Shown here piece by piece: positions 17,050 to 29,947 of a stretch of DNA of 35,009 nt (positions are counted from its first letter, which is position 1; every line of letters starts with the position of its first letter). A program made the position numbers and the translations under genes. The notes beneath the pieces were generated by a model. The model did not search any database and was not told where the DNA came from. It saw only the letters and a list, made by a program, of their open reading frames with translations. This stretch comes from a virus: the IMG/VR virus record IMGVR_UViG_3300025759_000302, positions 1-35,009 of that record; one strand, written 5' to 3'.

Positions 17050-19455
17050 TTATACCTCGTATGCTGCGGTATACATTACACCACAAAGAGTAGCTGTGTT
17101 GAGAGCAGGGCTGCTGACAGTCCCACCACCTACGGGCTGCTGCTGAATTTCAGCATAGTCCGCGTATGTCACTATATACCCGCCAACAACATAATAATTG
17201 GGGGTAAGTGTGAGCTGATATTGATAGTTTAAGGTTATACTTTGGTACTGAAAGGATGTACCAGCAAGTGGTATGCTTAAACGCATATTCCCTGAGCCTG
17301 TGTGACCATTCCACTCAACCCAAGCATTAAAAGCAACAAGTCTGCCTATACGAGTATAAGTTCCATTCTGTTGGCTATATGTTCCAGTCCCTGCCACTGT
17401 GCCGCCTCTTGATATAGGGGTAAAAGTAGACTCAAGATAGTAATCAAGTAGGTTGGCTGCTGCTGTACCGCCTAGGTAAACTCCGTTTTGCGAAAGGTCT
17501 AGCACTCCACTTGAATTAAAGCCTCCCACCTCAACATTATTAATTCTGAATTTATGACTCCCTCCAGATGGAGCAAGGTATAAAACATTTCCACTACTAG
17601 CCGCTACGCCAGAAGTGCCGGTGAATGAGGTCGCCCCATTAAGAGCAAGCATATCGTAAGATGAGATGTTTGTTAGCTTACTGTTTATTACGGTGAGAGT
17701 GTCGCTAAAACTTCCAGCACCAGCAACATCAAGTGTAGTGCTAGGACTGCTAGTGCCAATTCCAACTCTATTATTAGTAGCATCAATATAAAGCGTGTCA
17801 GTATCAAAGTAGAAGTCACCACTAGCAATCTTAGCTGGCGTGATTGTGCCATCTACAGGTACGTTAATCTCGGTCTGCGTGAACGTCATAACCTCAATAG
17901 TTGTACCACTGGCAGGAGCAGCACTAAAGGTTAGTGTAGTGCCAGAAGTGCTATAGGCATCTTTCTGCTGATATACACCATCAATGAATACCTGAGTGTT
18001 ATTTTCATTTACTGGGTTGATAGACAGAGTAAATGCAGTAGTAGAGCCGTCACCGCTAAAGCTATCTTGGTTTAGGTTATTTCCTGAGACTGCTGCGGCT
18101 ACAGAATAAACAATCAGTACATTGCCATTAGCAGGAGCAGTATCAAAAGTCAGGGTAGTGCCTGAGACAGTATAGGCATCTTGATTCTGGAATACACCGC
18201 CATTGAATACAATTAAGTCATTCTCGTCATCTATAGCCTGTGACAGCGTGAAATCAGTAGTTGAGCCGTCACCAGTAAAGGCATCACGAGTAAAGGTATT
18301 AGTTCCACCGCCACCAATGGCACCCCATTCAGTTGTGTAACCCTCGAACTGAGATAATGTAGTGTTATAGCGGAACATACCAGCAGCAGCAGTTGGTCTT
18401 TCAGCAGTAGTACCTACGGGGACATGGACAGCATCAGTTCTGTCACCTACGTCAAGAGAAACTGTAGCAGCAGAATCAAAGCCTAAATTGGTACCAGCAC
18501 CTAAAGTGGCGGCACCAGTTGTGGCAAAGGTAGAGAAAGTTCCGGCTGCTGGTGTAGCACCGCCAATAGTAGTGCCGTCAATGGTTCCACCGTTAATATC
18601 TACTGTAGTTACGGAACCGAGGTCAGACCAAGTGCCAGTTAAAGAGCCACCACCTGTAGCGGTGAGGGAGGTAAACGTACCAGCAGCGGCACTAGAACCT
18701 CCAATAGTAGTCCCATCAATCGTCCCGCCATTTATGTCTGTAGTTGTTAATACAGAGCTAGATATAGTCATTACGCCAGTAGAATCGGCAATAGTAGCAG
18801 AAGCTGTGCCGTCTTTAGCTTTGACATTGGTTACTTCTACGCTAGTAGCGTCTACTGTGGTGGCATTTACAGTCGTTGAGTTTACGGTGGTTATAGCGCC
18901 TGTAGTAGCAGTTGCTGTTGTGAATGTACCTGCGGCTGGACTCGCTGCACCAATAATGGTTCCATCAATGGCCCCACCATTTATGTCTACTGTAGTAGCT
19001 ACTAAGCTAGATACATCTGCCAAGTTTAAACTGGTAAACGCATCGACTACCGCAGCTCCAGCTCCGGCGCCATCTAAGTAAACAACTTTTACGTCCCCTG
19101 TCGGGATAGTGACGGTGCCGCCAGAACCCTGAGAAATAGTAATGCTTTGGCTACCAGTAGTGGCATTCTCAATCCACATAACGCGGGAAATAGTGTTTGG
19201 GGCGATAGTCAGCGTGCGGGTTGCGGTCAACGTAGCAGAAGAAGTTACTTTAAAGTACATAGACCTTGCGGGGTCTGTAGCGGAGTCTGCTACCGTAGTG
19301 GTGGCATCAGCGTCACTGGCAAAGCAGTCTTGTGTGCCATAAGACAAGGCTTCACCAATTAGCTCTAGGTTAACGTTAGTAGAAGTACCCCAAGTACCGT
19401 CTTCGTCACCAGTAGCGATTTCTTTTAATCTAAGGTCATTATCATAAGTAGCCAT
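17050..19455 (-). CDS. Main tail fibre protein
   Basis: This 801-residue protein starts at ATG 19455 after GGAGA. The N-terminus (YDNDLRLKEIATGDEDGTWG, then NVNLELIGEAL) is a virion-attachment module I know from marine phages. Three INGG-IDGT-IG repeats (about 158, 241 and 287) form the shaft. Two tandem modules of about 65 residues (391-455 and 463-527) start with FTGDGSTTDFTLS or FSGDGSTTAFTLS. NNRVGIGTSSPSTTLDVAG lies at 561-579. The C-terminus (LESTFTPISRGG, TYTRIGRLVAFNAWVEW) resembles receptor-binding tips. No S74 chaperone is present, so folding differs from the two smaller fibres. It is expected to form trimeric fibres binding the host surface. Confidence 0.87.
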   Translation of the reverse strand: MATYDNDLRLKEIATGDEDGTWGTSTNVNLELIGEALSYGTQDCFASDADATTTVADSATDPARSMYFKVTSSATLTATRTLTIAPNTISRVMWIENATTGSQSITISQGSGGTVTIPTGDVKVVYLDGAGAGAAVVDAFTSLNLADVSSLVATTVDINGGAIDGTIIGAASPAAGTFTTATATTGAITTVNSTTVNATTVDATSVEVTNVKAKDGTASATIADSTGVMTISSSVLTTTDINGGTIDGTTIGGSSAAAGTFTSLTATGGGSLTGTWSDLGSVTTVDINGGTIDGTTIGGATPAAGTFSTFATTGAATLGAGTNLGFDSAATVSLDVGDRTDAVHVPVGTTAERPTAAAGMFRYNTTLSQFEGYTTEWGAIGGGGTNTFTRDAFTGDGSTTDFTLSQAIDDENDLIVFNGGVFQNQDAYTVSGTTLTFDTAPANGNVLIVYSVAAAVSGNNLNQDSFSGDGSTTAFTLSINPVNENNTQVFIDGVYQQKDAYSTSGTTLTFSAAPASGTTIEVMTFTQTEINVPVDGTITPAKIASGDFYFDTDTLYIDATNNRVGIGTSSPSTTLDVAGAGSFSDTLTVINSKLTNISSYDMLALNGATSFTGTSGVAASSGNVLYLAPSGGSHKFRINNVEVGGFNSSGVLDLSQNGVYLGGTAAANLLDYYLESTFTPISRGGTVAGTGTYSQQNGTYTRIGRLVAFNAWVEWNGHTGSGNMRLSIPLAGTSFQYQSITLNYQYQLTLTPNYYVVGGYIVTYADYAEIQQQPVGGGTVSSPALNTATLCGVMYTAAYEV

Positions 19456-19473
19456 CTATATTCTCCGGTGCTG

Positions 19474-19686
19474 CTACACTAACGTATCGCCTTCGGCGGC
19501 TGGGATACTGGTTGCATATATCTTAGTATTTTGTTTCAAACTTAGCGAAATCCCGCAATCAGAACAAGTATCCGCTTCTAATTCAGATTCGTCTAAGTCA
19601 AAACCACAGGCAGCGCATAGAATTTCCACTTCGTGTTTGGGGTCTATGGTACCCCCTAAATCTTTAGCTTCGTTTATTTTTAACAT
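19474..19686 (-). CDS. 70-residue zinc-ribbon protein
   Basis: The ATG at 19686 lies just after the stop of the 390-residue gene; an ATG at 19743 is in frame but would overlap that gene by 55 bases. Two CxxC pairs (ILCAACGFD and DTCSDCGIS, about 15 residues apart) form a zinc-ribbon fold. A charged N-terminus (MLKINEAKDLGGTIDPKHEV) comes first. The ribosome site is weak, so coupling to upstream translation is likely. A nucleic-acid-binding or structural zinc domain is possible. No family could be named. Confidence 0.68.
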   Translation of the reverse strand: MLKINEAKDLGGTIDPKHEVEILCAACGFDLDESELEADTCSDCGISLSLKQNTKIYATSIPAAEGDTLV

Positions 19687-19688
19687 AT

Positions 19689-20861
19689 TTAAGCCGCAAT
19701 ATCTTCCCACTCTGGGGTCTGTGTGTTGTTTATTGTACCCCAATTTGACGTCTGTGCATCATTTATAGTCTGATAATTAGGGCTATTACTACTTGAAATA
19801 GCAGACCAATTTGGGTTTTGGTTATCTACTACTGGGGTATAGTTCGGGTTTTGGTCAGGCACTATCTCTCCCCAGACCAACACATTCCCTACATAACCAA
19901 CCGCACTTACACCTGTTACAAGTACAGAACTACCCGCAGTTGTAGTAGCAGTACCAAGTACTAAAGTCCCTGATACCCCTGTAACACTAACTGTTTGTGC
20001 GTTTCTTACTTCTACAGTACCTAAATTGCTAGTACCAGAAACGCCAGTAACTTCTACATTACCTATACCTATAACGCTAACATTGCCAGTAGCGCCAGTC
20101 GCTGCGACCCCTACTGGGCTTACCCCTGCTCCAGTCGTAATAGTCGCTGTGCCTAGGGCTGTGGTAGCAGATACCCCGGTTAAAGGTACAATGGCGTCTG
20201 CACTAACAGTCGCTGTACCTATGCTACCAACGGCTTCAACACCGGTTGTAGATATATTCGCATCACCAATTACGGTGGCTGTGCCTAATGCAGTAGTTGC
20301 GTATACGCCCGTTAAGGACACATTTGCATCTGCACTTACTGTTACAGAACCAGTCGCACCAGTGGCTTCCACACCGGTTGGGTATACATTAGCCTCTGCT
20401 ATTATGGATACAGAGCCTGTAGCTCCCGTAGCTTGTAGCCCTGTCGCAGCTACATTAGCTTCTCCGATAACTGATACAACGCCTGTATTACCGGTAGCTT
20501 CAACACCGGTTGGGTAGACATTTGCACCCGCAGCTACTATAACTGAGCCTAGGGTACCAGTAGCTTCAACCCCACTAACATCAATGTTAGCGTCTGTAAT
20601 AACAGATACTGTGCCCGCACTACCAAAACCTGAAACGCCAATAGCAGCTACATTGGCTTCAGCAACTACAGCAGTACTACCAAGGGCAGTTGTAGCTGAT
20701 ACCCCGGTAACATTGACGGTAGCTCCTGCCGATGCAACAACGGTACCTACGGCTGTGGTGCCTTGAGTACCATCTACATACATTTCGATGAGGTCAAGGC
20801 CCCATCTACCCCTGCTCCACGGTCCAGAGCCCCATCCTATATAATCATTAGATGAGGCCAT
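19689..20861 (-). CDS. Beta-repeat virion protein with 13 x 22 and 5 x 11 residue repeats
   Basis: The protein has 390 residues, starting at ATG 20861 after AAGG. After a short N-terminus (IGWGSGPWSRGRWGLDLIEM), residues 53-336 are 13 units of 22 residues (consensus GVxATGxxGxVxVxxxANVxxT), the last two residues shorter. Residues 337-390 are five units of 11 residues with pattern (Q/N)xx(N/E)(Y/W)xxI (QNPNYTPVVDN, QNPNWSAISSS). The alternating Gly/Val/Thr pattern suggests a beta-solenoid or beta-sandwich stack. Proteins with such repeats lie beside adaptor and fibre genes in marine phages and are annotated as structural. A tail fibre, tail spike stem or decoration role is likely. Confidence 0.75.
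   Translation of the reverse strand: MASSNDYIGWGSGPWSRGRWGLDLIEMYVDGTQGTTAVGTVVASAGATVNVTGVSATTALGSTAVVAEANVAAIGVSGFGSAGTVSVITDANIDVSGVEATGTLGSVIVAAGANVYPTGVEATGNTGVVSVIGEANVAATGLQATGATGSVSIIAEANVYPTGVEATGATGSVTVSADANVSLTGVYATTALGTATVIGDANISTTGVEAVGSIGTATVSADAIVPLTGVSATTALGTATITTGAGVSPVGVAATGATGNVSVIGIGNVEVTGVSGTSNLGTVEVRNAQTVSVTGVSGTLVLGTATTTAGSSVLVTGVSAVGYVGNVLVWGEIVPDQNPNYTPVVDNQNPNWSAISSSNSPNYQTINDAQTSNWGTINNTQTPEWEDIAA
19854..20705. repeat. 13 tandem 66-base coding units (22 residues each)
   Basis: The minus-strand reading frame shows 13 consecutive 22-residue units starting with Gly-Val, Gly-Leu or Gly-Val-Ser. The 66-base period is visible at the DNA level but units have diverged, with synonymous changes. 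The repeats remain strictly in frame and the length of all but the last unit is constant. Confidence 0.88.
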
Positions 20862-21327: not shown

Positions 21328-21621
21328 CTATAAATTACTAATAATTTTAGCCATATCAGCATGGCCTTGTTTTGCTAAGTCTGCGCAAAGCGTCGTTTTG
21401 TACGCCCGTATTGATTCGTTCATATAAAAAACCATAAGCTGTCGAATCCGGTCCTGAAACACCATAGCCTGTGCTTTTACCATAGGGTCAGCAGTTTCAC
21501 TAATAGAGATAAGTTTCTCTACAGCACGTTCTGCAAGCTCTTCAGGAGTAAACCCACGATTGTTTGTGGTGTAAACCTTAACGTCAAAACCTTCAACCGC
21601 TGCGCCCTGTACACCGTGCAT
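21328..21621 (-). CDS. 97-residue helical protein conserved in marine phages
   Basis: The ATG at 21621 shares bases with the upstream stop (TAATG), and AGGTAG lies upstream. The protein is helical and includes GFTPEELAERAVEKLISISE, PMVKAQAMVFQDRIRQLMVF and YKTTLCADLAKQGHADMAKI. The last part is a recurrent signature in marine podovirus-like genomes, always near the adaptor gene. Tight coupling to the adaptor suggests a joining-region or tail component. No function is known to me. Confidence 0.7.
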   Translation of the reverse strand: MHGVQGAAVEGFDVKVYTTNNRGFTPEELAERAVEKLISISETADPMVKAQAMVFQDRIRQLMVFYMNESIRAYKTTLCADLAKQGHADMAKIISNL

Positions 21622-22250
21622 TAAGCTACCTGTCTCCTAACTTGACCAGAACGATAAGCATCTTCACGCAATTTCCCATCCCCAAGGTTTTTCAGTAGGG
21701 CTATGGCTTGCACGTACAGCTTTTCGTAGTTGGCAACTATATCAGGTTCCGCTTTCATAAACCTAGCAGCTTCTACCAAGGCACCATTAAGTAGGGCAGA
21801 GTCAAACTCATCACCAAGCCACGTGGTACCTGCGGTTACGATAGATTCTGGGTAGTAACCATAGTGTATTTCGACTGAGTAATTAGAGTCTGGTGTAGGC
21901 CCCAAAATAAAAGTATCGTCGTCAAAAATACCATAATGTACTGGCTGACCAGTACTGGCTACAGCAGGATAGGCTTCTCGAATAAAGTTCGTATCTTTGT
22001 TTAGCAAATACGTATAGTTGCCACTACCATCAATGACGGCTAACGAATACACATACAACATATCAGAAGGCGCTGTTAGGTAAGTATTACTAGCTGTAGT
22101 CGTACCAGTCTGGTTCTTACGCAAAGCAGGTATCTGAACAGTATTATATATCTTCTGCTCGGCCTGCTCTGTGAACATAGCAAGTTGGTCGTCAGTAAAC
22201 GAGTCCTCGCATATATCCTGTATATTTGTCTTTAATTCGGTGTAGTTCAC
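21621..22250 (-). CDS. Head-tail adaptor protein (SU10-type)
   Basis: The start is GTG 22250 with GAGGG eight bases upstream; 209 residues. The N-terminal half (TELKTNIQDICEDSFTDDQL, AMFTEQAEQKIYNTVQIP) is helical, followed by a beta segment with YLTAPSDMLYVYSLAVIDG and HYGIFDDDTFILGP, then helices with LLNGALVEAARFMKAEPD and YVQAIALLKNLGDGKLREDA. This matches the adaptor family named after Escherichia phage SU10, found in podoviruses below the portal. The role is to connect the portal to the nozzle and to hold DNA after packaging. Identification is from memory of motifs, but the combination is distinctive. Confidence 0.78.
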   Translation of the reverse strand: MNYTELKTNIQDICEDSFTDDQLAMFTEQAEQKIYNTVQIPALRKNQTGTTTASNTYLTAPSDMLYVYSLAVIDGSGNYTYLLNKDTNFIREAYPAVASTGQPVHYGIFDDDTFILGPTPDSNYSVEIHYGYYPESIVTAGTTWLGDEFDSALLNGALVEAARFMKAEPDIVANYEKLYVQAIALLKNLGDGKLREDAYRSGQVRRQVA

Positions 22251-22262
22251 CAGAATACCCTC

Positions 22263-22424
22263 TTAGGCCATAGGACCACGTGCCATAGTGCCTTTAGTAG
22301 CAGCACCAACACCACGCATTTTAACGCCTTTGGTTTTCATGTTTATGGGTTTGTTAACATCAGTACCGGCTGGGTACTCTTTTACACCACTTACGTTTTT
22401 TACTTTTGGTTCTTTCATCTTCAT
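22263..22424 (-). CDS. 53-residue basic protein ending RGPMA
   Basis: A short gene runs from ATG 22424 (a second ATG at 22418) to TAA 22263-22265. The product MKMKEPKVKNVSGVKEYPAG followed by Lys-rich residues and a C-terminus VKMRGVGAATKGTMARGPMA strongly resembles small proteins seen next to adaptor genes in marine phages. It is rich in Lys and Gly, probably disordered, with no acidic cluster. Its gene fills the gap between the zinc-binding 116-residue gene and the adaptor, supporting its reality. A possible structural linker or DNA-binding peptide. Confidence 0.62.
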   Translation of the reverse strand: MKMKEPKVKNVSGVKEYPAGTDVNKPINMKTKGVKMRGVGAATKGTMARGPMA

Positions 22425-22432
22425 ATTAGTAC

Positions 22433-22783
22433 CTAACTTATCGTTACTGTTACTGTCCCTAACCCACCTGTAGCTTCTAAATTATCAGGGGTTAGCCCAT
22501 CATTATCGTTAAACCCTACTGGGTTCCAACCCCACTGAATGTCCCTACTTGCGACTAACTCAGCGGAATCAGGTCTTGGGTCCCTTAATGCTTGTGGGTC
22601 TTCTACCGGTATCTCACCTAAATGTAGCTGTGGGTGGTCCGGGTTCCAACACTCAGGACATGCCTTTATGTCGGTAATTCTACCTTTTTGTACGGTACTG
22701 CGTAACTCTCGTAGTTTATACTGAAACCCACATATGTCACATAGGGCGAGAGCTTTATTTCCAGAAGCGTATCTATACCCCAT
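22433..22783 (-). CDS. 116-residue zinc-binding protein, marine-phage family
   Basis: The ATG at 22783 follows GAGG that overlaps the upstream stop. Two CxxC pairs (CDICGFQYKL near residue 15 and CPECWNPDHPQL near 42) are separated by a charged helix-rich loop, giving a zinc-ribbon fold. The segment after it (EDPQALRDPRPDSAE) is a family signature in marine podoviruses. The C-terminus (EATGGLGTVTVTIS) ends with a half-unit resembling the 22-residue repeats of the 390-residue protein. The domain may stabilise the head-tail joint or bind nucleic acid; the role is unproven. Confidence 0.72.
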   Translation of the reverse strand: MGYRYASGNKALALCDICGFQYKLRELRSTVQKGRITDIKACPECWNPDHPQLHLGEIPVEDPQALRDPRPDSAELVASRDIQWGWNPVGFNDNDGLTPDNLEATGGLGTVTVTIS

Positions 22784-22785
22784 AC

Positions 22786-23490
22786 TTACCTCATATTATA
22801 CATACGAGGGACAAAACGAACGGGGGCTTTTTCCCTATCTTCTTCTGCTGCCAGCCTAAACTGCTCTTCATATTCCGCTTTCAGCATAGGCAGCCTTACT
22901 GCTAATTCGGGGTCCTTCATAGCAATATAGTACGCCAACCCAGCTACCAAGCAAGGGAAGAACCTAAAATTCATATCGGGGGTCTGTATACCACTACCAG
23001 CATCCTCAATACGCCGCATACGCCAGTATTTCATAATATAGTACGGGCTCTCAGCAGTTCCTTGGTCCGGTACAGGCCAAACTGTAACTGTGGGGTTATC
23101 TCTGCCACGGTCTATGTACATCTGAATAGGGCGCCCCTGAGAGAGCTTGTTCGGTATAGTTGAGTACGTAGACACGCTGATACGTGAAAGATTGAGGTCC
23201 GCCTGAGTTGTTACGTTACCATCACCCGTACGGATAACATGTTCTAGTAGGTCAATGGTGTCGGCTGGTAGGTTATATGTGGCAGTTCCTGAGACAAGGT
23301 TTAGTGTACCTTCCTCGATAGTCCACATGTTTATTCCACGGTTCTGCCATTCGATAGTCATCAAATTCATAGACCGTCTAGCAGTACGTAAGTCATACCC
23401 TGAGCGCATCTCACGCCCAGCACGCTCCCACGCTTCCTCGGCTACTTCCGTGAAGTCCATTGTAAACGCTGTAGTACCTGATGTAGCCAT
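22786..23490 (-). CDS. Head-tail joining or tail protein, marine-phage family
   Basis: The protein has 234 residues, with its ATG at 23490 overlapping the upstream TAA. Segments VAEEAWERAGREMRSGYDLR, RRSMNLMTIEWQNRGINMWT, GTATYNLPADTIDLLEHVI and TVWPVPDQ are typical of a head-tail joining/tail-tubular-like family in marine podoviruses. The N-terminal helix bundle followed by a beta-rich middle and helical C-terminus resembles adaptor or tail tubular A-like proteins. Its place just before the adaptor genes fits. Exact function is not fixed. Confidence 0.73.
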   Translation of the reverse strand: MATSGTTAFTMDFTEVAEEAWERAGREMRSGYDLRTARRSMNLMTIEWQNRGINMWTIEEGTLNLVSGTATYNLPADTIDLLEHVIRTGDGNVTTQADLNLSRISVSTYSTIPNKLSQGRPIQMYIDRGRDNPTVTVWPVPDQGTAESPYYIMKYWRMRRIEDAGSGIQTPDMNFRFFPCLVAGLAYYIAMKDPELAVRLPMLKAEYEEQFRLAAEEDREKAPVRFVPRMYNMR

Positions 23491-23672
23491 TATGCTCTCC
23501 AGCTCTTACGAGCCTTTTCTTTAGCAGCTTTAGTTAGACTGCCATAGTGGTACAACTTCTTTGAGTTATTTGACATAGTTTTGCCAGTCATCAACGTACC
23601 GTCGGGGTGTTTGTGCATACCCCCTTTATGTTCGGTGCCGTCCTTAAAATAATGTTTTACACCTTTAGCCAT
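23490..23672 (-). CDS. 60-residue His/Lys-rich basic protein
   Basis: The ATG at 23672 overlaps the upstream stop (TAATG). The product begins KGVKHYFKDGTEHKGGMHKH and continues PDGTLMTGKTMSNNSKKLYH, a combination I know from small proteins of uncultured marine phages. The sequence is basic and His-rich, with no acidic cluster. It belongs to a run of similar tiny basic genes, all joined by overlapping stop/start codons. Function unknown; a packaged nucleoid or capsid peptide is conceivable. Confidence 0.68.
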   Translation of the reverse strand: MAKGVKHYFKDGTEHKGGMHKHPDGTLMTGKTMSNNSKKLYHYGSLTKAAKEKARKSWRA

Positions 23673-23932
23673 TATTTAACTTTCCTATGCCTTTTAACCT
23701 TTGTAGCTACCTTTTTTGGCTGTGCTGAAAACTGCTTACCTTTTTTCGTGTCTGCGCGTTTCTTTCTACTCGTAGCCGCGTATTCCTTAGAAGAAAGCGA
23801 TTTTATTGCTTTCTCTGGCAAGTACCGTTCTCCTGTAGCTTTTGCCCCCTGTGTAGAAGGCTTGCCGCTTTTCGTACGCCACTTTTGCTTAGTCCATGAT
23901 TTAAGGGACTTTTGCGACTTACGTAACGCCAT
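23672..23932 (-). CDS. 86-residue highly basic protein (DUF5872-like)
   Basis: ATG 23932 overlaps the upstream TGA (TGATG). The sequence KSLKSWTKQKWRTKSGKPST at the start, ERYLPEKAIKSLSSKEYAAT in the middle and a Lys/Arg-rich end (KKVATKVKRHRKVK) match my memory of DUF5872, a small family of marine phages and some large DNA viruses. It is extremely basic, which suggests binding to DNA or to acidic virion proteins. It is part of the tightly coupled set of small basic genes after the capsid cluster. No mechanism known. Confidence 0.75.
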   Translation of the reverse strand: MALRKSQKSLKSWTKQKWRTKSGKPSTQGAKATGERYLPEKAIKSLSSKEYAATSRKKRADTKKGKQFSAQPKKVATKVKRHRKVK

Positions 23933-24180
23933 CAGTCTCTGTACCCGCCACCTTTGGCTTTGTATTCCTTAGCAAGCATTTGCGCTTTCCTAGCACTCCA
24001 TTGCCCGGGTCTACCACCTTTGCCACCAACTTTTATACGCTCAAACATCTGCTTACGCATGCCGGGCTTAGTGTAATTACCAGCTTCGTTGACGCTAGAT
24101 TTAACTTTACCACCACGCTTTAACGCGGCTGTTGGCATTTTAGCGGGGTTAATCGCCCCCATGCCCCGGCATTCACGCAT
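23932..24180 (-). CDS. 82-residue basic Gly-rich protein
   Basis: ATG 24180 overlaps the upstream TGA. The product contains RGMGAINPAKMPTAALKRGG, SSVNEAGNYTKPGMRKQMFE, and KVGGKGGRPGQWSARKAQML, with C-terminal KEYKAKGGGYRD. These signatures recur together in marine phages next to capsid or adaptor genes. It is strongly basic, with short helical segments and Gly turns. A DNA-associated virion peptide is plausible but unproven. Confidence 0.7.
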   Translation of the reverse strand: MRECRGMGAINPAKMPTAALKRGGKVKSSVNEAGNYTKPGMRKQMFERIKVGGKGGRPGQWSARKAQMLAKEYKAKGGGYRD

Positions 24181-24425
24181 CAGACCATACGTCCTTTGGT
24201 TTTACCTCGCATGGCACAACCGTCAATTTTACCGCCTTTACGGTACTTCTTGACCATACCGCCGCCCATATAGCCCATTTTAGCCATACCGCCTTTTTTC
24301 ATACCTTTTTCTTTTTTCATAAACTCTTCTCCTACAACTTTAGAAACCCCAACTTGTTTTGCAAACTTAGGGTTATTTGCTACAGCAGCCATAAAACGTC
24401 GCTGCTTATTACTTTTTGCTGGCAT
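24180..24425 (-). CDS. 81-residue basic protein with MPAKS N-terminus and Tyr-Gly-Gly motifs
   Basis: The ATG at 24425 directly follows the upstream stop. The N-terminus (MPAKSNKQRRFMAAVANNPK) resembles DUF3008-type small proteins; VVGEEFMKKEKG follows. The C-terminal half has repeated GG elements (KKGGMAKM, YMGGG at 52-56, YRKGG at 61-65) and ends CAMRGKTKGRMV. The Tyr-Gly-Gly elements recall those of the large distal virion proteins. It is basic and mostly disordered. Function unknown. Confidence 0.7.
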   Translation of the reverse strand: MPAKSNKQRRFMAAVANNPKFAKQVGVSKVVGEEFMKKEKGMKKGGMAKMGYMGGGMVKKYRKGGKIDGCAMRGKTKGRMV

Positions 24426-24426
24426 G

Positions 24427-24750
24427 TTAAGACCCCTTAACCCATTTCTTAGAACTAGATTTAGTCTTACTGGGGCTCCATTTCGCCTTGTCCGCCCAAT
24501 AAGCCGCGCTCATCTTACCTTTTTTGATGTTCTTGGCATGGCGGGACTTAAAGGCTTCACGTTGCCCTACAGTCTGATTGGTTTTAACACCTTGCTGCCC
24601 AAACCTAATAGTTTTTACCTTATCCCCTTCTTTAGCCACAACAATGTGGGACTTTGCAGGATGATTAGGCGTCCTCTTAGGTTTGTTAAAACCAGAAACC
24701 CCAGCCCTTGCAAGCCGGGGGTCCCTTTTACTTTTAGTCGTACTAGCCAC
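24427..24750 (-). CDS. 107-residue conserved basic protein (DUF6321-like)
   Basis: The start is GTG 24750, overlapping the stop of the upstream structural gene by eight bases, with only a weak ribosome site, so translational coupling is likely. DPRLARAGVSGFNKPKRTPN, SHIVVAKEGDKVKTIRFGQQ and ARHAKNIKKG-like SRHAKNIKKGKMSAAYWADK match my memory of DUF6321, a family widespread in phages, especially marine ones. The KTIRFGQQG stretch looks like a small beta domain followed by a Lys-rich helix. Role unknown; it heads the run of small basic genes. Confidence 0.78.
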   Translation of the reverse strand: MASTTKSKRDPRLARAGVSGFNKPKRTPNHPAKSHIVVAKEGDKVKTIRFGQQGVKTNQTVGQREAFKSRHAKNIKKGKMSAAYWADKAKWSPSKTKSSSKKWVKGS

Positions 24751-25336
24751 AGAACACCGTTAGGTTGGTAATTTGTGTTAAGGTAATAACCGCAAAGTCA
24801 GTCTTATTACTACGAGTAGTCAAAATACCTTCATTCGGAATTGTTACGCTATCAGAAAATGCTGCTGACCCAGCCGGTGTGTCAATCTGCAATATCAAGT
24901 CGCCACTAGAGCTGTTTGCATTGAATTTGATTGACCCTGCACTAGCAGTACCTACGTAATACAAGCTCTTAATACGAGTTCTTGGTAGTGCCAAAGAACC
25001 AGTAGTGCCGATACTCACATTACCAGCAGAGGCTCCACTAGCTTCAATACTGTCCACATAGGTGTAGAAGTTTGTAGAACTAGCAGTGCTGGCATTAGCG
25101 CCAGTAACTACTTCAGTAGTGTAAGCACCAGTAAGGTCGCCAACTTTAATGCCCGTAATCGTAAAAGTAATCCCGCTATCATTTCCGGCAGAGGTAAATA
25201 GTAACTTATACCCAGTACCGTAAGCGCTTACGTCGTTAGTCAATAAAGTAATAGCGCCCGCGCCACCTATTGATGCCGCAGCTTTAAGTAAAGTAGCACT
25301 TGTAGCGGGTGTAATAGCCCAAATATCATATTGCAT
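24743..25336 (-). CDS. Beta-rich virion structural protein (decoration or head-fibre type)
   Basis: The protein has 197 residues, with AAGGAG upstream of ATG 25336. YDIWAITPATSATLLKAAAS at the N-terminus and AGNDSGITFTITGIKVGDLT, followed by TEVVTGANASTASSTNFYTY, are common landmarks of beta-sandwich phage virion proteins. Ser/Thr/Gly-rich with regular strands and no Cys until the last residues (VFCG). It lies three genes after the capsid protein, so an outer-capsid decoration or fibre is likely. No enzymatic feature. Confidence 0.72.
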   Translation of the reverse strand: MQYDIWAITPATSATLLKAAASIGGAGAITLLTNDVSAYGTGYKLLFTSAGNDSGITFTITGIKVGDLTGAYTTEVVTGANASTASSTNFYTYVDSIEASGASAGNVSIGTTGSLALPRTRIKSLYYVGTASAGSIKFNANSSSGDLILQIDTPAGSAAFSDSVTIPNEGILTTRSNKTDFAVITLTQITNLTVFCG

Positions 25337-25346
25337 ACCTTACTCC

Positions 25347-25460
25347 TTATTTCTTTGCGGCCGCCTTTTTAGTGGCAGCCTTTTTAGGGGCAGTTTTTTT
25401 GGGGGCAGCCTTTCGAGCTGCCCGTTTTTTGCCCATTATGTTACTGTTTAGCTTACCCAT
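25347..25460 (-). CDS. 37-residue histone-tail-like Lys/Ala peptide
   Basis: The gene runs from ATG 25460 to TAA 25347-25349. The product starts MGKLNSNIMGKKRAARKAAP and continues with KKTAPKKA-type repeats, ending AAAKK. It has 12 Lys, 2 Arg and 10 Ala in 37 residues and no acidic residue, like histone H1 C-terminal tails. The gene fills the gap between two structural genes and is preceded by GGGGGTG at fair spacing. DNA condensation in the capsid or neutralisation of packaged DNA is a reasonable inference. Being so short, the call needs proteomic support. Confidence 0.6.
   Translation of the reverse strand: MGKLNSNIMGKKRAARKAAPKKTAPKKAATKKAAAKK
25403..25430 (+). other. Terminator-like hairpin on the strand opposite the genes
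   Basis: The plus strand shows GGGCAGC (25403-25409), a 7-base loop and GCTGCCC (25417-25423), followed by GTTTTTT. It lies inside the 37-residue Lys/Ala gene and would only stop transcription running against the genes. Because Lys/Ala codon runs (GCTGCC, AAAAAA) can create this by chance, the function is doubtful. Confidence 0.3.
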
Positions 25461-26121: not shown

Positions 26122-27030
26122 TTAAGCTCCCGGAGAACCGAAGATACCTAATGGGTCAGACACACCAAAGCTATAACGCTCACGAGCTTTGTATCGGCTG
26201 TTGCCGGTATCAAAGTCAGCGTCCATGGAGGTCTGCATCGGAGTACGAACAAAGTGCTTCAGTCCGTTAGGAACGTCAGTCAACAAGAACCAGCCGTTAG
26301 TGTCGGTCAGGTAATGGTTAACAGTGTATCCCTGCGGGATTGAGCCCATGCTGCGCATCGCGTTGATGTCGTTATCAGCAGTAGCTGTACGCAGCTCAGT
26401 TTCCAGCAGACGGGTAGCAACAAACTGCAATGCAGGTGGTACAACCAGTTTACGGGGTTTAGCTGCAATCAGCAGTCCACGCTCGTCGGTCCAACCAGCA
26501 ATCTGAATAACGGCGGCTTCCAAAGAAGTCTCATTAAGGTCAGCAGCAGTTGTAGGCTCGTTAGAGTTAGTACCACCATCAACCAACGGATGGTCAGTGG
26601 CACACAGCTCTTTGCCGTCACCGTAAGTGTAGTTGCTGTCGAAAGCATTGTTCAGGATAGCTGCGGCTTTAACCTGTTTGGTATAAGCCATAGCGCGTGC
26701 CAGTGCTTTGGTATAACGTGAAGACAGAGAGTCATACAGATTATCTTCAATCGCTTCTTCAGTGACTGAGAAACCCATAGCAATAGTCTCGTGGTTATAA
26801 CGAGCAGTCCACGCTTCCTGAGCGTTGTCATAAGAAATAGCGGAACCCTCGTTTTTAGTGGGGGCAGCGCCAAAGCCTGACAACTTAGTTTCTTCTTCAA
26901 AAGAACGGTCAGAAGATTCAGTTTCAAAAATCTCTGCGTGTTCTTCACCATATTTTGCATACTCAAGGCCGAACAGGGCGTTAAGACCCGGTAATAGTTC
27001 CTTGAGGAGTTGCGCTCTTGAAATAGCCAT
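26122..27030 (-). CDS. Major capsid protein, HK97 fold (Mu gpT-like)
   Basis: The protein has 302 residues, with AAGGAG before ATG 27030. The N-terminus (SRAQLLKELLPGLNALFGLE, then YAKYGEEHAEIFETESSDRS) forms the N-arm. YNHETIAMGFSVTEEAIEDN (about 77-96) and KPRKLVVPPALQFVATRLLE (about 190-210) are landmarks of the Mu gpT-like HK97-fold capsid family. The sequence RSMGSIPQGYTVNHYLTD and the C-terminal KARERYSFGVSDPLGIFG complete the A- and P-domains. The order scaffold, head proteins, capsid and then a strong terminator fits. It assembles the icosahedral shell; no separate protease was seen, so maturation may not need one. Length is typical. Confidence 0.92.
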   Translation of the reverse strand: MAISRAQLLKELLPGLNALFGLEYAKYGEEHAEIFETESSDRSFEEETKLSGFGAAPTKNEGSAISYDNAQEAWTARYNHETIAMGFSVTEEAIEDNLYDSLSSRYTKALARAMAYTKQVKAAAILNNAFDSNYTYGDGKELCATDHPLVDGGTNSNEPTTAADLNETSLEAAVIQIAGWTDERGLLIAAKPRKLVVPPALQFVATRLLETELRTATADNDINAMRSMGSIPQGYTVNHYLTDTNGWFLLTDVPNGLKHFVRTPMQTSMDADFDTGNSRYKARERYSFGVSDPLGIFGSPGA

Positions 27031-29190: not shown

Positions 29191-29601
29191 CTAAGCTCGA
29201 GTCACTTTGCTCGGTTCTTCTACGACGGCTTCAATAGAATCATCATTCATTAGACGATATTCTTGTTTACCGATTTTAAATCGCGTACCGGTATTGGCAC
29301 GAAACATTACGTAATCCCCTCGTTGGCACCACGGCCCGTTAGGGAAGCGGTCTTTGTCTGAATAGGCTTCAGCGCCCATATCAAGAACAAGTCCAACAGT
29401 GGATAATATATACTCTTCTCTCAGAGCTTGTTGGGACTTAACAATTTTGCTATCCCCATAAGTCTCCTCGATGTTTGGAAGAGCAATCAACAAACGATAA
29501 CCAACCGGGGTTGGTATATGTCCTTCAAGTACTACTTCCTCTTTTTCTTTCTCCACCCACTTACGCTCTAGCGCCGTGGTTTCTACCGCTTCAGTCATCA
29601 T
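29191..29601 (-). CDS. Phage co-chaperonin, GroES/Cpn10-like
   Basis: The protein has 136 residues, with two ATGs in a row (29601 and 29598) after AGGGAG. After a 28-residue charged N-terminal extension, the Cpn10 fold is visible from about 29 to 128: PTPVGYRLLIALPNIEETYG, a loop region (DSKIVKSQQALREEY), TVGLVLDMGAEAYSDKDRFP, QRGDYVMFRANTGTRFKIGK and EYRLMNDDSIEAVV. The GDYVMF-x4-GT-x-FKI-x5-YRLM pattern closely follows GroES. The mobile-loop hydrophobic triad is IVK rather than IVL. It would dock onto the host GroEL to fold capsid proteins, like T4 gp31. Its place between head genes and scaffold supports a capsid-folding role. Confidence 0.86.
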   Translation of the reverse strand: MMTEAVETTALERKWVEKEKEEVVLEGHIPTPVGYRLLIALPNIEETYGDSKIVKSQQALREEYILSTVGLVLDMGAEAYSDKDRFPNGPWCQRGDYVMFRANTGTRFKIGKQEYRLMNDDSIEAVVEEPSKVTRA

Positions 29602-29794: not shown

Positions 29795-29947
29795 CTATCT
29801 CCCTTGGCCCCTATACGGTTTATATGAGGCTTTCTTGTGTTTATTCATTGAACTCAGTTTGTGAGTACCCCCACCAATGCTGGTCTTTTTACGCGCATTA
29901 TGGTTAAGGAGTGTCGTCAAATTGCTCTGTTTTGACATTTTCGCCAT
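29795..29947 (-). CDS. 50-residue basic protein overlapping the portal stop
   Basis: ATG 29947 overlaps the portal stop codon (TAATG), and the gene ends with TAG 29795-29797, seven bases before the next ATG. The product starts MAKMSKQSNLTTLLNHNARK and ends KHKKASYKPYRGQGR. It is basic (about 14 Lys, Arg or His) with Ser, Thr and Asn and no acidic residue. The precise fit between two genes makes it credible. It belongs to the small basic peptides scattered through this operon; function unknown. Confidence 0.6.
   Translation of the reverse strand: MAKMSKQSNLTTLLNHNARKKTSIGGGTHKLSSMNKHKKASYKPYRGQGR

Follow-up and report, generated by a model that had tools for sequence, protein, structure and literature searches.

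We analysed a 35,009-base record of an uncultured virus from IMG/VR (IMGVR_UViG_3300025759_000302; the whole stretch is called the window below), with the focus on a cassette of small basic genes on its minus strand at 22263-25460. An earlier reading of the same DNA (the original prediction) had described here seven tiny, mostly Lys/Arg-rich proteins, which it took to be packaged and possibly to act as a phage nucleoid. The seven open reading frames (ORFs) are found at the positions reported and have exactly the reported lengths of 37, 107, 81, 82, 86, 60 and 53 residues (p37 to p53 by length), and the further 50-residue basic ORF after the portal gene (p50) is present at 29795-29947. The seven genes and p50 all encode proteins with an isoelectric point (pI) of 10.2-12.0 and a net charge of +9 to +25; among the larger non-overlapping minus-strand ORFs (at least 90 residues), only p107 exceeds pI 9.3, and all except three are acidic. 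The gene order on the minus strand is TerL, portal, p50, a 65-residue ORF, GroES, a scaffold-like gene, two more genes, capsid and a cement-like gene, followed by p37, a 197-residue ORF, p107, p81, p82, p86, p60, an adaptor, a 116-residue CxxC protein, p53 and a second adaptor. The slot is bordered upstream by the major capsid protein gene (26122..27030, minus strand; phrog_371 3e-23, PF25209 7e-14) and coupled downstream to the first, SU10-type adaptor gene (22786..23490, minus strand; PF24175 5e-12). A location between capsid and tail genes had been proposed; the capsid side of this description holds, while the downstream genes encode adaptor or neck proteins and not tail fibres. The overlapping stop and start codons that were said to join most members are found as one-base overlaps in a chain from p81 through p82, p86 and p60 to the adaptor (at 24180, 23932, 23672 and 23490), and p107 overlaps the end of the 197-residue ORF by 8 bases. 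The 197-residue ORF, the SU10-type adaptor and the CxxC protein are three non-basic genes within the same 22263-25460 interval. The nearest relatives of the window terminase (48-60% identity) are those of Pelagibacter phages HTVC027P and HTVC023P, 023Pt_psg01, DSL-LC04 and Planktothrix phage Pag-Yong1.

Comparison of the small basic genes with their homologues gave ratios of nonsynonymous to synonymous change (pN/pS) of 0.17-0.42, the p37 value coming from a single pair, against 0.15 for the capsid gene, 0.19 for the adaptor gene and 0.33 for the CxxC gene. As pN/pS is low while synonymous change is near saturation, the seven basic ORFs are real coding genes under purifying selection. For the content of the slot in relatives, we sampled 80 contigs with the adaptor and 80 contigs with p107, and counted genes, called mechanically, in the 53 loci that hold both capsid and adaptor. 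Domains (modules A to F) were scored by motif, since iterated hidden Markov models of p82 and p86 drifted into each other. Between capsid and adaptor there are, at the median, 6 small basic ORFs, whose net charges add up to a median of +76, and at least one recognised module or C-terminal tag is present in 49 of the 53 loci. Their identity varies: module A was found in 12 loci, E in 14, F in 2, B in 13, D in 15 and C in 37, and a member of the p37 family turned up at just one further locus. The set is hence not always co-inherited, and the independent loss of members, which the original prediction itself had named as speaking against it, has occurred. The slot is conserved and its gene set is exchangeable. 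Basic character is kept throughout, with a pI above 9 in every stand-alone member sampled of modules A (88/88), B (44/44), C (99/99), D (31/31) and E (18/18). The cassette is best described as a modular, exchangeable late unit whose small basic proteins come from a few domain families common to tailed phages, polinton-like viruses and giant viruses, in line with the earlier remark that several members belong to families of domains of unknown function (DUF): p107 is related to Tlr6F/DUF5754, and p82 and p86 to DUF5872.

Module A is represented by p107 (24427..24750, minus strand, GTG start, net charge +23), which matches phrog_7595 at 2e-32 and whose relatives are 55-91% identical to the window protein. 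A search of p107 against Pfam family PF19058 (DUF5754) stayed below the curated cut-off and reported no match. The DUF5754 profile gave sub-cut-off matches (E 0.001-0.08) in 15 of 41 related records; by coordinates, 14 fall in the p107 homologue and one, in record G009, lies elsewhere. A bridging 105-residue ORF (contig L198) scores 64.2 bits against PF19058 and is collinear with p107 (BLASTP 2e-8, hhalign 95%). From the other direction, a Tlr6F-like ORF of contig L203 matches phrog_7595, the family of p107, at 9e-9, and the A region of the portal-type head protein family phrog_220 at 1e-12. This contig resembles a polinton-like virus in its capsid-like neighbours, with a match to Capsid_N at E 0.02 only. 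The family motif pattern (K..V..(R/H)FG..G, F..R(H/M), S.AYWA and W) was found in an alignment of 14 divergent members. Judged by these sequence comparisons, p107 is a member of the wider Tlr6F/DUF5754 superfamily without being filed under PF19058 itself. Compared with Tlr6F/DUF5754 proteins, the phage form has an additional NKPKRTPxHP segment at its N-terminus and is either a member of the late cassette or part of a head-protein fusion. According to a description of 2015, Tlr6F is conserved in almost every polinton-like virus as well as in several virophages, many giant viruses and some phages, and no similarity could be detected to any domain whose structure or function is known (PMC4642659). 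In three contigs resembling polinton-like viruses (L203-L205), the Tlr6F homologue is encoded in divergent orientation beside capsid-like ORFs.

The same domain occurs inside known head proteins. ICP1 prohead protease gp125, encoded directly upstream of the scaffold gene, has it as its C-terminal part, and in gp012 of Aphanizomenon phage CL131, a phrog_220-type fusion, it stands between the portal domain and the Mu-F domain. These forms differ from p107 in being fused, not free, and in being mildly basic. An AlphaFold2 model of p107 (mean predicted local distance difference test, pLDDT, 80.7) retrieved with Foldseek ICP1 ORF125, a 1,393-residue protein (the length of the CL131 protein) and an XkdF protein. 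In HK97, segments of the protease reportedly govern encapsidation. A hoped-for module A protein, T4-GC15, turned out to be a tail protein. ICP1 particle proteomics could not have detected gp125, as the database used contained host proteins plus coat, scaffold, decoration protein and TcaP only (PMC10945586). As a separate observation, CL131 gp012 (L168:2399-6580) is a natural fusion of 1,393 residues that joins portal, Tlr6F-like, inorganic pyrophosphatase-like and Mu-F domains.

The overlapping genes p82 (23932..24180, minus strand; phrog_17747 2e-31) and p86 (23672..23932, minus strand; phrog_14910 7e-36) carry module B (KPGMRK..GQWSARKAQ..GGGY) and module C (WRTKSGKPS..GERYLP), respectively. 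Modules B and D can be aligned, occupy the same slot and never occur together in any of the 53 loci; B is probably, though not certainly, homologous to D. Neither was found without C (28/28 loci; Fisher p 1e-7, relatedness ignored), and in all 28 cases B or D directly precedes C, overlapping or abutting it with a single exception. The same coupling is seen among isolate phages, where 17 of 17 records with B also carry C, while C is present in only 20 of 50,697 records (relatedness again ignored). Single-protein forms exist for both combinations, D+C (L101/L130) and B+C. Neither p82 nor p86 reached the Pfam cut-off for PF19197 (DUF5872) and no match was obtained; a phage D+C fusion passes that cut-off, variants of C match DUF5872 at 8e-14, and the B+C fusions match PF19197 at E 0.035-0.05 only. 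The AlphaFold2 model of a B+C fusion (pLDDT 86.7; predicted template modelling score, pTM, 0.58) is mostly helical and aligns over nearly its full length with the DUF5872 protein of Chrysochromulina ericina virus (CeV-01B; TM about 0.5, E 0.006). We conclude that p82 and p86 are a coupled pair corresponding to the N- and C-terminal halves of giant-virus DUF5872, which in the window are two overlapping genes, with module B in place of D. A weak Pfam match of p82 to Moricin was dismissed as chance. A full DUF5872 protein (D+C) that clears the Pfam cut-off is encoded close to a Tlr6F-like gene on a phage-type contig (L101:8525-8869).

A second connection to structural proteins comes from p81 (24180..24425, minus strand), in which module E (MPAKSNKQRRFMAAVANNPKFAKQVGV; phrog_16759 1e-13) is followed by the C-terminal tag DGCAMRGKTKGRMV. 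The N-terminal domain of p81 corresponds to the N-terminus of the virion structural families phrog_22033/25121. Module E also opens gp51 of jumbo phage 121Q, annotated as structural, and in phiKZ it forms a stand-alone gene (gp165.1) near genes annotated as structural head proteins. From these phrog_16759 domains p81 differs by an additional Gly/Lys-rich tail and the DGxA tag. Tags of this kind (RGxGAATKGxxARGPMA, RGAGIARKGVRPAKMR, RGCGAVMNNRRKKTLYV and DGIAxRGKTKGRMV) are carried by otherwise unrelated protein bodies. Of 3,426 sense ORFs, 166 end in such a tag, compared with 1 of 4,158 antisense ORFs, and 179 of the 191 occurrences of the motif fall within 26 residues of the C-terminus. The simplest reading of a shared tag is a shared binding partner.

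Parts of the cassette were detected in isolate phages. In HTVC027P (L164:26216-28527), several small ORFs, most of them basic, follow one another from portal to GroES, and D-like, C and DUF6321 proteins are among their products; the text of the HTVC027P transcriptome paper makes no gene-level mention of them. HMO-2011, a phage with a P22-like coat, carries A, B and C, and in the related Roseobacter phage CRP-603 the three are consecutive, in the same relative order as in the window. On contigs without an SU10-type head gene in view, 20 of the 65 cases of module A have both B or D and C no more than 3 kb away. These occurrences imply that the block travels between phage backgrounds.

Taking these data together, we give an even chance to the reading that the exchangeable cassette encodes late proteins which reach the inside of the head and contact DNA, by analogy with the internal proteins of T4. 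The T4 core proteins are small, are present in hundreds of copies, are in some cases directed to the prohead by a short N-terminal tag, and are not essential for assembly (PMC9958956). IPI-IPIII, which are made late and packaged by this tag, serve as a working analogy only (PMC9958956); the candidate tag of the cassette is C-terminal, whereas the T4 capsid-targeting sequence is N-terminal. According to this scheme, the cassette proteins would be made late, together with head proteins, and reach the prohead through their affinity for coat, scaffold or portal, with module A, module E or the tag as the possible address. They would then remain with the packaged DNA or attach to it, perhaps to be ejected together with it, and members would be gained and lost between close relatives, as with the T4 proteins. 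The original prediction had derived packaging from location. Position alone is no proof, since the same genes adjoin lysis or terminase genes elsewhere; a link to the head that is independent of gene position is provided by module A fused to portal and protease and by module E on structural proteins.

Several findings weigh against entry into the head and contact with DNA. In HMO-2011, CRP-13, CRP-603, S-CRES1, HTVC033P and ICBM2, the modules lie by lysis, tail or terminase genes; in several of these phages the block adjoins a gene for endolysin, lysozyme, amidase or terminase. The argument from location loses weight accordingly. No module match was found in the first 50 kb of P-SS2 or of S-SM1, two phages with virion proteomics. 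Searches of the Protein Data Bank (PDB) matched no solved structure or DNA-binding fold: sequence searches with p107 and p81 gave nothing useful, Foldseek and VIA-align of p107 returned no credible fold (best E 0.74; best Z 2.3), and neither did VIA-align of the B+C fusion, whose best hit, Mu transposase Igamma (Z 2.8), was too weak for use. Moreover, the A domains fused to protease and portal are only mildly basic (+5 and +7), and fused or divergent versions range from +5 to +8. With so little charge on the fused versions, module A is unlikely to serve everywhere to neutralise DNA. The low charge suggests instead that A is in the first place a binding or targeting domain, to which the free forms add positive charge. 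A nucleoid role of the battery as a whole, as proposed in the original prediction, is possible.

The fusion of module A to the C-terminus of a prohead protease, encoded beside the scaffold gene, would also suit head-assembly factors that stay out of the virion, small basic proteins that attach to the acidic scaffold, coat or protease while the prohead is built and are then degraded or left out of the mature particle. Acidic electrostatic partners are available in the window (net charge -19 for the scaffold-like protein and -16 for the capsid protein), and the cassette overlaps the adaptor gene. The capsids of polinton-like and giant viruses are unrelated to those of tailed phages, and the sharing of module A with such viruses speaks against a role in head assembly, as do the free variation in composition between close relatives, unusual for essential factors, and the position of the genes away from head genes in other phages. 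We regard this explanation as rather unlikely. The lysis and terminase neighbours in several phages and the high positive charge would also be expected of late nucleic-acid-binding proteins that stay unpackaged, work in the cell, for instance on phage DNA, late mRNA or ribosomes, and have only the late operon in common with the head genes; the families moreover occur in viruses of eukaryotes, which have no phage head (PMC4642659). The fusions of A to portal/Mu-F and prohead protease and the presence of E on structural proteins point instead to the particle and make such an unpackaged role distinctly improbable. Least probable, and in our view very unlikely, is a swappable arsenal of injected anti-defence or takeover proteins whose charge serves packaging and entry and not DNA compaction: member turnover between close relatives, the mobile A-B-C block in phages with unrelated capsids and the precedent of T4 IPI (PMC9958956) would fit, but module A is highly conserved (p107 relatives as above), unlike fast-evolving counter-defence proteins, and has relatives in unrelated viruses.

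Extending the preferred reading of head-interior, DNA-contacting proteins, one might propose that Tlr6F, DUF5872 and DUF6321 form a common toolkit of basic proteins of the virion interior, acting as a protamine-like core system in tailed phages, polinton-like viruses and giant viruses, and that Tlr6F targets proteins to the prohead or core and was for this reason also incorporated by phages into portal and protease; we consider this broader proposal doubtful. The families themselves are already known as DUFs. What is apparently undescribed in the open-licence literature is that they make up an exchangeable late cassette in marine phages, that DUF5872 occurs split into a pair, that a C-terminal tag is shared, and that Tlr6F is present inside portal and prohead protease; an earlier description elsewhere is possible. 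The occurrence of Tlr6F in a small cassette of culturable phages and in portal and protease offers a first testable hypothesis for this domain, head interior or prohead targeting, which could be addressed in CRP-603, HTVC027P or ICP1. Abundant marine phages are further shown to encode a set of basic proteins whose families are known elsewhere as DUFs of giant viruses, and whose tiny genes are easily missed by annotation.

The remaining basic genes are as follows. The first gene of the cassette, p37 (25347..25460, minus strand, net charge +14), encodes a Lys/Ala-rich protein resembling a histone H1 tail; its match to the H1-like HC2 family (PF07382) reaches 16.8 bits against a cut-off of 40, and its one other homologue is on contig L127. 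Module F (KHYFKDGTEHKGGMHK) is carried by p60 (23490..23672, minus strand, net charge +10), with a pN/pS of 0.22 from 7 pairs. The last gene, p53 (22263..22424, minus strand), consists of a linker and the C-terminal tag RGVGAATKGTMARGPMA and has homologues in 75 loci. The protein encoded by p50 (minus strand) ends in YKPYRGQGR and matches phrog_17967 at 5e-4.

Other features of the window were observed around the cassette. The 116-residue CxxC...CxxC protein (22433-22783, minus strand) is acidic and separates the two adaptor paralogues; it is conserved in about 90 loci, with a match to Prok-RING_2 at E 0.018 only. The two SU10_adaptor paralogues (22786-23490 and 21621-22250, minus strand) belong to one neck module. 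The phage GroES (Cpn10; 29191-29601, minus strand) between the portal and scaffold-like genes is conserved in the group. Further downstream on the minus strand (17050-20861), two long acidic ORFs of 801 and 390 residues contain Thr/Ala/Val/Gly-rich repeats and resemble virion proteins of the fibre or adhesin type.

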